A stretch of 64,000 nucleotides of DNA from an uncultured bacterium (GCA_937951485.1 CALEDJ010000016.1:139086-203085), one strand, 5' to 3'; counted from the first letter of the stretch, positions 5,597 to 35,825 are shown. The notes: a model not told the origin generated them from the letters alone. A program made the numbers and translations.

Positions 5597-6601
5597 ATGT
5601 TGCGGGTGGGACTGATCGGATATGGCTATTGGGGGCCGAATCTGGCGCGAAATTTCAACGCGCATCCGGAGTGTGCGCTGATACGGATCGCGGACATGGC
5701 GCCGGCGCGCAGAAGCGCGGCGGCGGCGGCGTTTCCGGCGGCGGAGGTGACGGACGCCGCGGACATTGCCAAAGCGCCGGACCTGGATGTCATTGTCGTC
5801 GCTACCCCGGTGTTCACGCATTATGAACTGGCGAAGACCGCGCTGGAGCACGGCAAACATGTCTGGGTGGAAAAGCCGATGACCTCGACGCATGACCAGG
5901 CGCGGGAACTGACCGACCTTGCCCGCGCCCGCGGCCTGACGCTGATGGTGGACCATACGTTTCTGTTCACGGGCGCGGTGCGAAAAATGAAGGCGCTGAT
6001 TGATGCGGGGGAGTTGGGCGATTTGTATTATTATGATTCGACACGGATTAATCTTGGCATTTTCCAGCACGACATCAACGTGGTGTGGGACCTGGCGCCG
6101 CATGACTTGTCCATCATGGATTACCTGCTGGGCGACGCGGCGGAGGCGGTGAGCGCGCACGGCCGGGGCCATTTCGACACGGGGTTGGAGGATGTGGCGT
6201 ATGTGACGGTGTTTTACCCGAACAATCTGATCGCGCATTTTCATCTGAACTGGCTGTCGCCGGTGAAAATCCGGCGGACAGTGGTGGGCGGGTCGAAGAA
6301 GATGCTGGTGTGGGACGACCTGAACAAGGAGGAGCAGATCAAAATCTACGACAAGGGGATGGCGGTGGAGACGAAGGAGGGGTTGTATCGCGTGTTGGCG
6401 ACGCCGCGCCACGGCGACATGTATGCGCCGGTGGTGCCGACCGTCGAGGCGCTGAAAACCGAGGTGGAATATTTCGTGGAGTGCATTGAAAAAGGGCTTA
6501 CGCCTTTCAATAACGGCGCGGCGGGCGCGCGCATCATCGCGATGTTGGAGGCGACGGATCGATCGTTGAAAGAGAACGGGCGGGTTATCGCCTTGCGGTG
6601 A
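5597..6601 (+). CDS. Gfo/Idh/MocA-family nucleotide-sugar 3-dehydrogenase (WbpB/WlbA-like)
   Basis: 334 residues from ATG 5597 (GAGGGAC ribosome-binding site). The N-terminal Rossmann fold has GLIGYGYWGPNLARNF at residues 5-20. The active-site lysine is in WVEKPMT (Lys93), and the C-terminal catalytic region has VWDLAPHD at 163-170. The GYGYWGPN signature is typical of sugar-nucleotide oxidoreductases acting at C3 in the WbpB/WlbA group. The next two genes, 42 and 3 bases away, are a formyltransferase and a DegT aminotransferase. That order implies oxidation of a UDP-sugar to a 3-keto sugar for transamination. Assignment to C3 oxidation is inference from family and context. Confidence 0.85.
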   Translation: MLRVGLIGYGYWGPNLARNFNAHPECALIRIADMAPARRSAAAAAFPAAEVTDAADIAKAPDLDVIVVATPVFTHYELAKTALEHGKHVWVEKPMTSTHDQARELTDLARARGLTLMVDHTFLFTGAVRKMKALIDAGELGDLYYYDSTRINLGIFQHDINVVWDLAPHDLSIMDYLLGDAAEAVSAHGRGHFDTGLEDVAYVTVFYPNNLIAHFHLNWLSPVKIRRTVVGGSKKMLVWDDLNKEEQIKIYDKGMAVETKEGLYRVLATPRHGDMYAPVVPTVEALKTEVEYFVECIEKGLTPFNNGAAGARIIAMLEATDRSLKENGRVIALR

Positions 6602-6643
6602 CACACGAGCAGGGTTCTGCAAGTACTGGAATGGAAGGTAAAG

Positions 6644-7321
6644 ATGGCGAGAAACGTTATTCTGCTGGGCAAAGGCGCACTGGCGATCCGGGTGGCGGAG
6701 TGGTTCCTGCAAAATCCGGATTACACCCTGAAATTGGTGGTGCCCGTGATCCCGGAGCCGAAATGGACCGATTCGATTTCCGCATGGGCAAACAAGCACG
6801 ATGTGCCATTGGTCGAATCCGGTCGGTATAAAGACATCCCCGGCGTAAAGGACGAACATTGGCGCATTGATCTGGCGTTTTCGGTCTTTTACGACCGAAT
6901 CATCAGACCGTGGTTTATTGACAAGTGCGATCGGATCCTCAACCTGCACAACGGTCCGTTGCCGCGTTACCGGGGCGTGTCTCCCATCAACTGGGCGCTG
7001 AAAAATGAAGAGCGGATGCACGGCGTCACGATTCACGAGATCACGCCGGGAATAGACGACGGGCCGATCGTCTCGCAGGTGTTGTATTCGATTTACCCCG
7101 AGTTTGACGAAGTGCGGGATGCATATCTCCGGGGTTTGGCATACGGCTGGACCTTGTTCGAGCAGACCATGCCGATACTGGAGAAGATCAAGGCGGTGCC
7201 ACAGGACGAGTCGAAGGCGCTGTATTACGATTCGAGCAAGAACGCCCTGCTCGGTGAACGCCGCTATTTTACGCGGGAGGAATCGTTGCGGGCCATGGCA
7301 CAGCCGGGGAAGGAACACTGA
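6644..7321 (+). CDS. Sugar N-formyltransferase
   Basis: 225 residues with the formyltransferase fold. The catalytic triad of the family is visible as Asn100-x-His102 in NLHNGPLPRYRG and Asp138 in PGIDDGPIV, with the usual 36-residue spacing from His to Asp. The length is that of small sugar N-formyltransferases (WlaRD/QdtF/VioF type) that use N10-formyltetrahydrofolate to formylate a primary amine on a nucleotide sugar, and is shorter than methionyl-tRNA formyltransferase. It sits 3 bases upstream of the aminotransferase expected to make that amine. Which sugar is formylated cannot be read directly. Confidence 0.88.
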   Translation: MARNVILLGKGALAIRVAEWFLQNPDYTLKLVVPVIPEPKWTDSISAWANKHDVPLVESGRYKDIPGVKDEHWRIDLAFSVFYDRIIRPWFIDKCDRILNLHNGPLPRYRGVSPINWALKNEERMHGVTIHEITPGIDDGPIVSQVLYSIYPEFDEVRDAYLRGLAYGWTLFEQTMPILEKIKAVPQDESKALYYDSSKNALLGERRYFTREESLRAMAQPGKEH

Positions 7322-7324
7322 CCT

Positions 7325-8431
7325 ATGCAGGTGCCGTTTCTGGATTTGAAGACCCCGCACAACGAACTGGCCGATGAGATTCTGCCGCTGTGGGAGGAGA
7401 TTCTGCGGCATGCGGCATTTGTGGGGGGGCCGCATGTGGCGGCCTTTGAGGAGGAATTCGCGGCGGCGTGCGGAACATCGCATTGCGTGGCGGTCAACAG
7501 CGGTACCGATGCGCTCCGTTTTGCGTTTCTGGCGCTCGGCCTGCGGCCGGGCGATGAGGTGATTACGGTGGCGAATACCTTTATCGCCACGACGGAAGCG
7601 ATCACGCAGGCCGGCGGGCGGCCTGTTTTTGTGGATATTGACCCCCGCACGTACAACATGGACCCGGCAAAGATTGAGGCGGCCCTCACGCCCCGCACCA
7701 AGGGAATCGTGCCCGTCCATCTGTATGGACAGACGGCGGAGATGGACCCGATTCTGGAGATTGCGGGCCGGAAGGGCCTGTGGGTGGTGGAGGACGCCGC
7801 GCAGGCGCAACTGGCCGAATACAAGGGCCGCCGCGCCGGTTCCATGGGCGTCATGGCGGCGACGTCATTCTATCCCGGAAAGAACCTGGGCGCGTGCGGC
7901 GAGGCGGGCGCGGTGATGACCAACGACGCCGCGCTGGCCGCCACGGTGCGCAAACTCCGCGACCACGGTCAGGCCAGGAAGTATTACCACGAGATGGAAG
8001 GGTATAACGGGCGCTGCGATGCGCTGCAGGCGGCCGCGCTCCGGATTAAACTGCGCCGCTTGCCGGAATGGAATGCGGCGCGGCGCGCCGCGGCGGCGCG
8101 TTATCTTGAGCGGCTCTCCGGGATACCGGACGTCGTTGCGCCGAAAGTGGCGGACGGCTGCCTGCCCGTGTGGCACTTGTTCGTGATTCAGGTGGATAAT
8201 CGCGACACGGTGGCTGAAGCGCTGCGCGACCGGGGCGTCGGCACGGGGCTGCATTATCCCGTGCCGTTGCATCTGCAGGAAGCGTATCGCCATCTGGGGG
8301 GGGTTGAGGGCGCGCTGCCCGTGACGGAAGCCTGTGCGCGGAGATTGCTGTCCCTGCCGATCTTTCCCGGTCTGACCGATGCGCAGATTGATTACGTCTG
8401 CGAATCATTGGCAGCGGCAATAGAAAAGTGA
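7325..8431 (+). CDS. DegT/DnrJ/EryC1/StrS aminotransferase (WbpE-like)
   Basis: 368-residue PLP-dependent sugar aminotransferase. The PLP lysine is Lys186 in SFYPGKNLGACGEAGAV. Asp157 and Gln160 of VVEDAAQA contact the cofactor ring, and NSGTDAL (residues 58-64) is the phosphate-binding motif. The family converts keto-sugar nucleotides to amino sugars, usually with glutamate as donor. Together with the upstream dehydrogenase it forms a WbpB/WbpE-type pair (3-keto then 3-amino). ATG 7325 follows the formyltransferase stop by 3 bases, so the genes are probably translationally coupled. Confidence 0.9.
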   Translation: MQVPFLDLKTPHNELADEILPLWEEILRHAAFVGGPHVAAFEEEFAAACGTSHCVAVNSGTDALRFAFLALGLRPGDEVITVANTFIATTEAITQAGGRPVFVDIDPRTYNMDPAKIEAALTPRTKGIVPVHLYGQTAEMDPILEIAGRKGLWVVEDAAQAQLAEYKGRRAGSMGVMAATSFYPGKNLGACGEAGAVMTNDAALAATVRKLRDHGQARKYYHEMEGYNGRCDALQAAALRIKLRRLPEWNAARRAAAARYLERLSGIPDVVAPKVADGCLPVWHLFVIQVDNRDTVAEALRDRGVGTGLHYPVPLHLQEAYRHLGGVEGALPVTEACARRLLSLPIFPGLTDAQIDYVCESLAAAIEK

Positions 8432-8558
8432 CGCATTGAAGGAAAAGACTGCGCCGGAATCCGCCTCCGGTGAGCACAGAGGCTTTTGAGGAAGTTGTCT
8501 GTAATTGGAAGGGTGATTTGTGCCCCCCTTTGCATAGGAGTGCATATGAGAATTTCTG

Positions 8559-8605
8559 GAGACCTTCGGTCGTGGGCGTGGCACGGTCGGGCGACCGGCC
8601 ACAAC
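8559..8605 (-). repeat. Rep-A repeat, isolated copy
   Basis: Inverted relative to the array at 23.7 kb. On the minus strand it reads TTGTGGCCGGTC, then GACCG..CCAC, then GACCGAAGGTCT. It occupies the 250-base gap between the aminotransferase and the nucleotide-sugar dehydrogenase; nothing else is seen in that gap. Confidence 0.7.
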
Positions 8606-8684
8606 AAAAAAAGCGCAAGCGCGGCTTGGGTCCCCCAAAGGGCGGGGCGCGAAGCGCCGTGGGCTGTGAATGAGGAATAGGACA

Positions 8685-9971
8685 ATGAACGTCATCGTGG
8701 TGGGCGCGGGGCGGATGGGATTGCCGCTGGCGTGCGCGATTGCGGAAAGCGGTGCGCTGGTGACGGCCTGCGACGTGGACCCGGCGATTGTGGACGCGAT
8801 CAATGCGGGAACGTCGCCGTATGACGAACCGGGACTGGATGCGTACATCGCCCGGAATCATGCGGCGGGACGGCTGACTGCGACGACGGATACGACCGGC
8901 GCGGCGCGCGATGCGGATGTCGTCATCATCATCGTACCCGCCCATCTCACCCCGGACCGCGATATTGACTATGGGATTCTGCGGGCCGCATCGGAAGCGG
9001 TGGGCAGGGGGCTGAGAAGGGGGGCGCTGGTGTCCTGGGAAACCACCGTGGCGGTGGGCGGCACGCGCCGCGTATTGATTCCCGTCGTGGAACAGGCGAG
9101 CGGGCTTTGCGCGGGCCGCGATTTCTTTGCGTGTTTCAGCCCGGAACGTGTCAAGGCGCGCTTCGTGTTTGAAAAACTCCGCGAAACCCCCAAGGTAGTA
9201 GGCGGCTACGATGCCGCATCGGCGGAGGCGGGCGCGGCCTTCTACGCGCAGCATCTCGGCGCGCGCGTCATCAACGTGGACACGCTGGAGGCGGCGGAAC
9301 TGGTCAAACTTTCGGGAATGATCTATCGCGATGTGAACATTGCGCTGGCCAATGAACTCGCCGCCTATTGCGAGGCGGTGGGCGAGGACTACTGGCGTAT
9401 CGCCGAGGCCTCGAACGACGACGACGAAACCCGCTTGCTGTTCCCCGGCATCGGGGTCGGCGGCCACTGCACGCCCGTCTACCCCTATTTCATCATCCGC
9501 GACGGCGAACGCCGGGGCGTCATGCAGCATCTTGCGATAGCCGCACGCGCCATCAACGACAATCAACCCGAACGCAACGTGGAACGGCTGGCGCGCGCCT
9601 GGGCGCCGCTCCACGGGAGGCGCGTTCATATCCTGGGCTTGTCTTTCCGACCCGATGTGAAAGTGGACATCTTCAGCACGGCATATCCGTTGAGCACGGC
9701 GCTGCGCGCGCGGGACGCAATCGTCACGCTGGAAGACCCCTGGTATTCCGACGAGGAGATTCGCGCGGCGGGGTTTGAGCCGGCCTGCGCAGGCCGCGAT
9801 CCGATGGACGCCGTGATTCTCAACACCGCGCACGGCGCGTTCCGCAATCCGGACTTCGCGCAATGGCGCGCGCGCGGCATCGCGGCGGTGCTGGACGGCC
9901 GCAACGGCTGGGACCGCGAAGCCGTGGAGCGGGCCGGGCTGCTTTATCTTGGCGTGGGCCGGGGCGTGTAA
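8685..9971 (+). CDS. Nucleotide-sugar 6-dehydrogenase (UDP-GlcNAc/ManNAc dehydrogenase type, WbpA/WecC-like)
   Basis: 428 residues from ATG 8685 (GAGG, 9-base spacing); an ATG 15 bases earlier is less well placed. The N-terminal Rossmann motif is VVGAGRMGLPLA. The catalytic cysteine is Cys262 in GIGVGGHCTPVYPYF; this GGHC-P-PYF form is that of UDP-HexNAc dehydrogenases rather than UDP-glucose dehydrogenase (GGSCFPKD). The family oxidises C6 twice to a uronic acid using NAD+. In the WbpA/B/E scheme it would act first, giving UDP-GlcNAcA for the C3 dehydrogenase at 5597. It is separated from the three-gene block by a Rep-A repeat. Confidence 0.88.
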   Translation: MNVIVVGAGRMGLPLACAIAESGALVTACDVDPAIVDAINAGTSPYDEPGLDAYIARNHAAGRLTATTDTTGAARDADVVIIIVPAHLTPDRDIDYGILRAASEAVGRGLRRGALVSWETTVAVGGTRRVLIPVVEQASGLCAGRDFFACFSPERVKARFVFEKLRETPKVVGGYDAASAEAGAAFYAQHLGARVINVDTLEAAELVKLSGMIYRDVNIALANELAAYCEAVGEDYWRIAEASNDDDETRLLFPGIGVGGHCTPVYPYFIIRDGERRGVMQHLAIAARAINDNQPERNVERLARAWAPLHGRRVHILGLSFRPDVKVDIFSTAYPLSTALRARDAIVTLEDPWYSDEEIRAAGFEPACAGRDPMDAVILNTAHGAFRNPDFAQWRARGIAAVLDGRNGWDREAVERAGLLYLGVGRGV

Positions 9972-10008
9972 GGTTTGCGGAAGTAACGCTGGGCGCGAAG
10001 GAAGGTTC

Positions 10009-11637
10009 ATGAATACGGCGGGAGAAACGCAACGCTCCCTGGTTTCGCCCAAGGCGGATGCGGCTATACTGATCGGCGCATGCGCCGCGACAGGCGCGGT
10101 GATCGGGTTGACACAATATGTGTGTCTGCCGCTTGCACCGCTGGCCCTGGCGTTTCTGGCGGGCGGCAGCGTCGCCCTGGGGGTCTTCGGGGTCTCCGCC
10201 CTGCTTGCGCTGCTGCCGGTGCTTCTGGCCTTTCTGCTGATGCAACGTTTTGACGAATCATTTGCTGTTCCGCTGGATCATTATGTGGCATTGAAGCCGA
10301 CGTTCTATCTGACGTTGTTGTGTCTGTTGCTGCTGGGCGCGCGGGTGCTGCTTGACCCGACCGCCGATGTTCGTGGCAAGCCGGAACTGCAACGTTTTCT
10401 CGGTCGTCTCTTCTGGACCCTGGCGGCGTTCTTGGCGTTGGCTTTGATAACGATCGGAGTAAACCGCCTCTTCGACAACTATCTCCTTCATCGCGATTTG
10501 ACCGGCGAATTGCTCGCGCTGGGCGCGGTGGTGTCGCCGATTTTTTTCGTGGTGTTGCTGCCGAGATGCGGTCTGAGCCGCGCGCGGACGCTGTGGGCCA
10601 TCCGTTTCATGATCGGACTGGGCGGCCTGGCGGGGTTCATCCTGGCGGCGTTCGGTATTCTCCCCGGGCGGGTGTTGGATATGATCGGGTGGACGCAGGC
10701 CATCGGCGGCACCTTGGACCTGGTGCGCGGCCGTCTGCCGTTGGGCCATCCCAATTCCGTGGCCGCGGTGATCCTCCTGCTGATGCCGCCCGCGGTGGTC
10801 TTCGGCCTGGGTTGCGACAGGGGCTTCTGGCGCCTCTTTCATCTCGCATGCGCCGCGCTGATGTTCCTGGGCGTATTATTCTCCTTGTCGCGGTCGGCCA
10901 TGCTCTGTCTTGCGCTGATTCTCGCGCCGACCATGCTGTACCTGATCTGGCGGGCGCGGGGCCGGCGGCGCCTGGTGCTGGGGTCGTTGTCGTTCGCATT
11001 CTGCGCGGCGCTCGTCGCCATTGCGCTTTATCTTTTCAGTCAGTACGATTTCAGCCGCTTCTGGTCGCGCGGCTATCACGAAGACGCGTCGGTCGCGCGG
11101 CGCACCGACAGCCTGTACACGGCCCTGGCCATTTGGCGGGATTATCCGGTCTTCGGCATATCGCCCGATGCATTCTACATGCGTTTCGACATCCGCAAGG
11201 ACTGGGACATGCCCAGCCGGGATGAAATCAGCGGCCTGCTGTTCTACAAGGGCCGGGTCTCGGCGGAAACGCCGCACAATCTGTTCCTGATGGCCTTTGC
11301 CGAATTTGGTCTGCCGGGCGGTATCCTGTTTCTGTTGTTGTTGCTTTTCCTGTTGCGCATGGTCTGGCGCGCGCGCAAACACGCCGGCATCAGCGATTAT
11401 GATCGGCTCGCCCTCTCCGGGCTGCTCTTCGGATTGTGTGGATTCCTGCTGATGCAGATGTTCGGCGCGGAGTTGCTGGCCGCGCTGCGCGCAAGCATCG
11501 TGTTCTGGGTGCTCGCCGCGTTGACGGCGCATTATGCCGGCCTGGTCGAAGCGGAATCCCCCGCTGAAAACACATCCGTTTCCCCGGATAATCAAGCGGA
11601 CCGACCTGTTCCGACCGAGGCAATAAAAATGCCCTGA
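10009..11637 (+). CDS. O-antigen ligase/polymerase-family membrane protein (Wzy_C)
   Basis: 542 residues with about a dozen hydrophobic segments. A large periplasmic-type loop lies around residues 350-430, between Trp/Arg-rich helices. GHPNSVAAV near residue 245 and AETPHNLFLMAFAEFGLPGG near 423 match the conserved regions of the Wzy_C/WaaL family, which ligates or polymerises undecaprenyl-linked glycans at the outer face of the inner membrane. ATG 10009 has GAAGGAAGG upstream and follows the dehydrogenase by 37 bases, so it probably belongs to the same polysaccharide operon. Ligase and polymerase cannot be told apart from sequence. Confidence 0.82.
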   Translation: MNTAGETQRSLVSPKADAAILIGACAATGAVIGLTQYVCLPLAPLALAFLAGGSVALGVFGVSALLALLPVLLAFLLMQRFDESFAVPLDHYVALKPTFYLTLLCLLLLGARVLLDPTADVRGKPELQRFLGRLFWTLAAFLALALITIGVNRLFDNYLLHRDLTGELLALGAVVSPIFFVVLLPRCGLSRARTLWAIRFMIGLGGLAGFILAAFGILPGRVLDMIGWTQAIGGTLDLVRGRLPLGHPNSVAAVILLLMPPAVVFGLGCDRGFWRLFHLACAALMFLGVLFSLSRSAMLCLALILAPTMLYLIWRARGRRRLVLGSLSFAFCAALVAIALYLFSQYDFSRFWSRGYHEDASVARRTDSLYTALAIWRDYPVFGISPDAFYMRFDIRKDWDMPSRDEISGLLFYKGRVSAETPHNLFLMAFAEFGLPGGILFLLLLLFLLRMVWRARKHAGISDYDRLALSGLLFGLCGFLLMQMFGAELLAALRASIVFWVLAALTAHYAGLVEAESPAENTSVSPDNQADRPVPTEAIKMP

Positions 11638-23678: not shown

Positions 23679-23945
23679 TTGTGGCCTCTGTTGTGGCCGG
23701 TCTCCTTGTTCCCTGTTGTGGCCGGTCTCCTGACCGCGCCACAAGACCGACCGAAGGTCTTCCCTGTTGTGGCCGGTCTCCTGACCGCGCCACAAGACCG
23801 ACCGAAGGTCTCCCAAACGCTTTCCCTGTTGTGGCCGGTCTCCTGACCGCGCCACAAGACCGACCGAAGGTCTCCCAAACGCTATCATCACATATTTGGA
23901 GACCTTCGGTCTATTGTGTGGCGCGGGCGGCAGACCTGCCGCAAC
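23679..23945. repeat. Rep-A array (three full copies plus partial and inverted copies)
   Basis: Three near-identical 50-base copies start at 23711, 23762 and 23824. Each contains TTGTGGCCGGTC-TCCT-GACCGCGCCACAA, which folds as a hairpin with 12-bp arms and one bulge, followed by a smaller hairpin AGACC-GACCGA-AGGTCT. A truncated copy lies at 23679-23710 and a diverged inverted copy at 23899-23945. Spacings are 51 and 62 bases, with CCCAAACGCT after copies two and three. The array fills the gap between plsC and argH. Confidence 0.9.
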
Positions 23946-23981
23946 AGCATGTATTGGAAGTGCCTGATGGGGAATCGCTAG

Positions 23982-35609: not shown

Positions 35610-35825
35610 TTTCGGGAACCTCCCAAAGCAGGGGCACACAAAGCGGGATCGAGCGGCAGCGTGGCTGTGAAACAGCGCAGGCGCACCGGCATTTTTGCAG
35701 GCTGACGCCTGTACTCCAGAACTATCCGTTGTGGCCGGCCTCCCGACCGAGCCACAGCAACGACCGAAGGTCTCCAACAATCTTGACAGGCTGAAGCCTG
35801 ATCTCCGGAACCGTCTCGCTGAAAA
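35610..35825. other. Spacer with Rep-B / Rep-A / Rep-B repeats
   Basis: No gene. Rep-B copies lie at 35697-35722 (GCAGGCTGACGCCTGTACTCC) and 35784-35810 (ACAGGCTGAAGCCTGATCTCC shortened), with a Rep-A copy at 35729-35773 between them (TTGTGGCCGGCCTCCCGACC ... ACCGAAGGTCT). Confidence 0.7.

Follow-up and report, generated by a model that had tools for sequence, protein, structure and literature searches.

Which nucleotide sugar is made by an operon in which an N-formyltransferase stands in the place of an acetyltransferase? This question is raised by five same-strand (+) genes with intact frames at positions 5597-11637 of a 64,000-nucleotide stretch of DNA from an uncultured bacterium (GCA_937951485.1, CALEDJ010000016.1:139086-203085), the whole of which is called the window below. 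In order they encode a Gfo/Idh/MocA dehydrogenase (GFO), a formyltransferase (FT), a DegT aminotransferase (DEGT), a 6-dehydrogenase with a GGHC motif (UGD6) and a Wzy_C protein; a first-pass annotation had listed the same five genes, and all of them are found where it had placed them, over the Pfam cut-offs. 3-Formamido-6-deoxyhexoses are known on dTDP backbones. The reference route WbpA-B-E-D(-WbpI) of Pseudomonas aeruginosa leads to UDP-GlcNAc3NAcA or ManNAc3NAcA (PMC10622841), and the operon studied here is like WbpA-WbpB-WbpE-WbpD in bringing together a 6-dehydrogenase, a Gfo/Idh 3-dehydrogenase, a DegT 3-aminotransferase and an N-acyltransferase. As judged from the sequence, its product is probably UDP-2-acetamido-3-formamido-2,3-dideoxy-hexuronic acid (GlcNAc3NFoA type), destined for a surface glycan.

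The evidence that carries this reading comes from a survey of 68 genomes of the phylum, which is perhaps Hydrogenedentota, all of one order in the collection used, with the gene-content tables of the clusters built with tblastn. Since the gene after GFO encodes a hexapeptide acetyltransferase of the WlbB/FdtD kind (ACYL) in 16 of these genomes and FT in only two, FT fills the acyltransferase slot in an operon that is otherwise of the usual acetamido-sugar type; a weak ACYL match is also seen in genome G003. The two with FT are the window genome (G000) and G002 of the same family, both with the order GFO-FT-DEGT-UGD6-WzyC. G001, which belongs to the same genus as G002, has the order GFO (78%), ACYL, DEGT (68%), UGD6 (74%) and WzyC (45%), where ACYL is a 159-aa hexapeptide transferase lying between GFO and DEGT, and FT is absent from this genome. 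The arrangement is not one of chance, because the five-gene order recurs in G002 (locus L031) and, with the acyltransferase alone changed, in G001 (L056). The same locus in related genomes, carrying ACYL or FT, strongly supports the first-pass proposal that a formyltransferase replaces the acetyltransferase of a WbpA/B/D/E-like set, and a survey for the same gene order, also suggested there, finds it in G002, and in G001 with ACYL in the FT position. In G000, as had been described, and also in G002, FT lies between dehydrogenase and aminotransferase without a WbpD-type acetyltransferase in the run, and the five genes of the window include no acetyltransferase at all. By gene content, the operon is a form of the 2,3-diacetamido-uronic acid pathway in which acetyl has given way to formyl; as in that pathway, a WlbB-like acetyltransferase occupies the slot in G001, G029 and G006. 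The nearest solved relatives of ACYL are the N-acetyltransferase 7s3u, the WxcM-like 4mzu and WlbB (3mqg), and enzymes of these types act on C3 amines. Both kinds of acyltransferase adjoin each other in a metagenome-assembled genome of Flavobacteriales (L006:6518-8669), where GFO, an ACYL homologue (63% to the ACYL of G001) and FT follow in sequence, with no close DEGT on the contig.

FT itself has the Asn-x-His...Asp triad noted at first pass (N100/H102/D138), and the three residues are invariant across 16 aligned family members. Its nearest PDB sequence is WlaRD, to which it is about 25% identical while being shorter, and QdtF is also near the top. The predicted model (pLDDT 92) has WlaRD/HCAN_0200 as its top Foldseek matches and FdtF/QdtF/WlaRD as the top ones by VIA-align, with ArnA tied (Z 23.4), so that the structural comparison envisaged in the annotation places both WlaRD and QdtF among the nearest folds. 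WlaRD, HCAN_0200 and QdtF are 3-N-formyltransferases, and FT is proposed to formylate a C3 amine from 10-formyltetrahydrofolate (10-formyl-THF). The same relatives, together with QdtB and DesV among those of DEGT, might speak for formylation of a dTDP-3-amino-3,6-dideoxyhexose by the WlaRD/QdtF/FdtF pathway, with UGD6 unrelated; however, FT is distant from WlaRD, and because the 3,4-ketoisomerase FdtA/QdtA (PF05523) is not found in G000, G001 or G002, while the 3-ketone is already explained by the Gfo/Idh dehydrogenase, an enzyme that route does not use, this is very unlikely, and we rejected it on the absence of FdtA from the three genomes. The fold of FT matches Fmt and 10-FTHF dehydrogenase too, which could suggest a PurN/Fmt-type or deformylase enzyme that is in the operon by chance and does not act on its sugar. 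But G000 has four Formyl_trans_N genes besides FT, and FT forms a separate family that replaces ACYL and tracks GFO and DEGT across unrelated phyla and phage-like contigs; a housekeeping role was rejected on these grounds and seems extremely improbable.

The two enzymes preceding formylation point in the same direction. GFO keeps K93 (EKP), D165 and H169, all invariant, as in Gfo/Idh 3-dehydrogenases, and among specific NCBIfam models it scores highest with NF040723 (UDP-GlcNAc 3-dehydrogenase), at 158 bits, the runner-up having 94; the cut-off of NF040723, an archaeal equivalog model, is far higher, at 450. DEGT keeps the lysine motif for pyridoxal phosphate (PLP), SFYPGKNLG, and its nearest PDB entries are 2oga (339 bits), 7b0d (339), QdtB (338) and WbpE (305), in agreement with the WbpE-like label it had been given. 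The entry 2oga is presumably DesV, and DesV, QdtB and WbpE are 3-aminotransferases. GFO is proposed to oxidise C3 and DEGT to aminate it: C3 is pointed to because the nearest solved relatives of ACYL, FT and DEGT are all C3-type enzymes, and the specificity clues of GFO, FT and DEGT together favour C3 chemistry on a UDP-HexNAc. The label WbpB-like is right as to superfamily but narrower than the data allow, as the score of GFO is 58 bits with GnnA (7bvj) and 40 with WlbA, and the folds are tied (Z 34.8 and 34.0, respectively). The substrate of GnnA is UDP-GlcNAc.

In the scheme that we infer for substrates, C3 regiochemistry, reaction order, configuration and glycan destination, GFO with NAD would oxidise C3 of UDP-GlcNAc(A) to the 3-ketone, DEGT with PLP would convert the ketone to the 3-amine, and FT would transfer the formyl of 10-formyl-THF to this amine, giving the 3-formamido group. 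UGD6 with two NAD would oxidise C6 at the start of the route, in the manner of WbpA, or at its end, with the same product either way, and the sugar would then be transferred to a glycan, with Wzy_C-dependent polymerisation or ligation following. The gene identities, the catalytic residues, the synteny, the swap and the exclusive linkage of UGD6 are read directly from the DNA.

This linkage is what bears on the uronic acid. UGD6 scores 304 bits with TIGR03026, over the cut-off, and has GVGGHC with the catalytic Cys, in which we take GGHC to be the HexNAc-type motif of the 6-dehydrogenase family. Its clade is found in six of the 68 phylum genomes (G000, G001, G002, G006, G029 and G060), and because it lies inside the cluster in all six, UGD6 appears functionally tied to the pathway. 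It starts a few bases past DEGT in G001 and G002, G029 and G006 have GFO-ACYL-UGD6, and an FT cassette is adjoined by UGD6 in G000 and G002 only. UGD6 is proposed to oxidise C6 to the uronate. Since most GFO-ACYL clusters are without UGD6, C6 oxidation is an optional step; the uronic-acid product of the first-pass annotation is favoured by the exclusive linkage of the clade, yet a 6-dehydrogenase cannot be taken as a general part of FT or ACYL cassettes, most of which are without it.

Several observations weigh against the formamido-uronic acid. GFO is by sequence nearer to GnnA than to WlbA; UGD6 is near the cut-off of no substrate-specific model and has an unusual HCTPVYP where VDP is usual; no UGD6 of the clade is found in most GFO+ACYL or FT clusters, including those of L007, L008 and the phage-like contigs; no glycosyltransferase adjoins the operon; and the search of G000 for a WbpD homologue outside the operon covered 175 kb only. 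The sole ACYL-like match in those 175 kb (G000:C29) is O-acetyltransferase-like; its neighbours are a GT2, a methyltransferase and a paralogue of DegT, and GFO is not among them. Some of these points would fit a GnnA/GnnB-like route, in which GFO, DEGT and FT turn UDP-GlcNAc into UDP-2-acetamido-3-formamido-2,3-dideoxy-glucose while UGD6 supplies a separate uronic acid to the same glycan: GFO is close to GnnA by sequence, GnnA is high among its fold matches, its best NCBIfam model is a UDP-GlcNAc 3-dehydrogenase, and the cassette is without UGD6 in Acidobacteria and in 13 of 15 IMG/VR contigs, as are most ACYL clusters of the phylum. However, UGD6 is in the operon of all three genomes of the window's family (G000, G001 and G002), and its clade never occurs outside the cluster in the phylum, whereas a general supplier of uronic acid would be expected elsewhere too. 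We consider this route rather unlikely. The operon is like GnnA/GnnB, the UDP-GlcNAc 3-dehydrogenase and aminotransferase for UDP-GlcNAc3N, in its two steps through 3-ketone to amine; unlike there, an N-acyltransferase (for formyl or acetyl) and a 6-dehydrogenase come after, and the operon has Wzy_C and not lipid A genes. From WbpA-B-E-D it differs by the N-formyltransferase in place of WbpD, by the GnnA-leaning GFO, and by the absence of WbpI from the locus; this 2-epimerase is needed only for a manno product, and a genome-wide search for it was not made.

The survey beyond the phylum corrects the WbpA-containing set of the first-pass annotation, in that the real conserved unit is, by its synteny, FT+GFO+DEGT. 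In nearly all its carriers FT has Gfo/Idh and DegT genes next to it or close by. Homologues of about 46-75% identity are found in G002, the Flavobacteriales genome L006, two Acidobacteria (L007, which is Acidobacterium sp. S8, and L008) and IMG/VR contigs, and a more distant member (44%) in L030. Both Acidobacteria have GFO-FT-DEGT without UGD6, as do 13 of the 15 IMG/VR contigs in carrying the three genes, and the phage nature of several of these contigs is supported by genes for a UvsX-like recombinase, ribonucleotide reductase and clamp loader. The family is rare, since samples of the Acidobacteriota (396 genomes) and the Bacteroidota (395) give only members already known; plasmids and isolated phages give distant matches only, nearly all below 40% identity. 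Judged on these members, FT is a distinct short single-domain family with GFO and DEGT as constant partners. The cassettes without UGD6 probably make non-uronate sugars, UDP-GlcNAc3NFo for the FT type and UDP-GlcNAc3NAc for the ACYL type. The cassette of both Acidobacteria has a gene for a bacterial sugar transferase just upstream of it (L007:5702-6841, PF02397; L008:5592-6815, homologous by eye), hinting that in these bacteria the glycan may begin with the formamido sugar. Of the cassette-bearing IMG/VR contigs (L016-L020, L022-L029), several have GDP-mannose dehydratase or epimerase-type genes alongside.

The histories of the genes within the family are in conflict. The GFO tree places G001 with G002 (100/98), whereas G000 goes with G002 in the trees of DEGT (84/85) and UGD6 (98/98), and approximately unbiased (AU) tests reject the alternatives (p 0.0017 for GFO, 0.03 for DEGT and 0.01 for UGD6); these trees are exploratory, with few taxa, groups picked after the first trees were seen and moderate support for DEGT. 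Because of this conflict, the simplest reading seems to be that the acyltransferase-DEGT-UGD6 block was exchanged as a unit between relatives. Tentatively, a portable cassette of three genes, for single-domain FT, Gfo/Idh and DegT, may serve unrelated bacteria and phage genomes in making UDP-2-acetamido-3-formamido-2,3-dideoxy sugars, and in the lineage of the window may have displaced the acetyltransferase of a diacetamido-uronic operon, giving a previously undescribed UDP-3-formamido-uronic acid, with FT-DEGT-UGD6 exchanged as a block.

The features are collected in Table 1. The gaps between successive genes, from GFO through Wzy_C, are 42, 3, 238 and 37 bp. Pfam matches over the cut-offs are GFO_IDH_MocA (98 bits), Formyl_trans_N (61), DegT (398) and Wzy_C (64), with the N, central and C domains of UDPG_MGDP_dh in UGD6, and hydropathy predicts 14 transmembrane segments in the Wzy_C protein. 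The wider spacing of DEGT and UGD6 in the window genome is due to a repeat with blastn copies at 23714-23946 and 35728-35776 of the window and at L058:8608-8702 (G000:C29); G002 has no comparable gap. The operon stands alone, because the genes upstream and downstream are not glycan genes: the flanks carry PPDK-like, Nudix, methyltransferase and RarA-like ATPase genes, with apparent purine synthesis genes further upstream. Elsewhere in the window genome, a Cas9-like protein (HNH_4 and Cas9 alpha-helical lobe) is encoded near a contig end (L060:17118-19001; G000:C8).

Table 1. Positions in the window of the operon genes and the intergenic repeat
Feature	Position	Strand	Description	Family or method
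GFO	5597..6601	+	Gfo/Idh/MocA NAD-dependent sugar-nucleotide 3-dehydrogenase, GnnA/WlbA-type	Pfam GFO_IDH_MocA
FT	6644..7321	+	single-domain 225-aa sugar N-formyltransferase	Formyl_trans_N
DEGT	7325..8431	+	PLP-dependent DegT aminotransferase	PF01041
Dispersed intergenic repeat	8557..8651	.	GC-rich, in DEGT-UGD6 gap	blastn copies
UGD6	8670..9971, probable start 8685	+	NDP-sugar 6-dehydrogenase, GGHC motif	TIGR03026
Wzy_C protein	10009..11637	+	O-antigen ligase/polymerase-like membrane protein	PF04932

Among known formyltransferases, FT is like the dTDP-sugar 3-N-formyltransferases WlaRD, QdtF and FdtF, its closest relatives among solved structures, in fold and triad, but it differs in its 225 aa and single domain, its low identity, its UDP-HexNAc-type partners and the lack of a dTDP-sugar ketoisomerase in the genome. 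The formyltransferase domain of ArnA, for UDP-Ara4N, is similar in fold, tied with WlaRD/QdtF; unlike ArnA, which acts on the C4 amine of a pentose, FT is not fused to a decarboxylase domain. In Brucella perosamine, too, one type of sugar amine carries formyl or acetyl (PMC5981137); there it is the C4 amine of GDP-perosamine, with the acetyltransferase inserted by engineering, whereas here the swap is natural and in a UDP-HexNAc 3-amino pathway. The literature searched, which covered few specialist carbohydrate journals, gave no description of a 2-acetamido-3-formamido uronic acid.

If the proposed pathway is true, a formylated amino-uronic acid would be added to the sugars that bacteria are known to make, and the single-domain formyltransferases would be defined as a family of their own. 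The related loci, differing only in the kind of acyl donor enzyme (acetyl-CoA versus formyl-folate), would form a clean natural experiment, and the chemistry of surface antigens would be linked to one-carbon metabolism. The cassette on phage-like contigs would, in turn, suggest a role in the modification of phage or host glycans.

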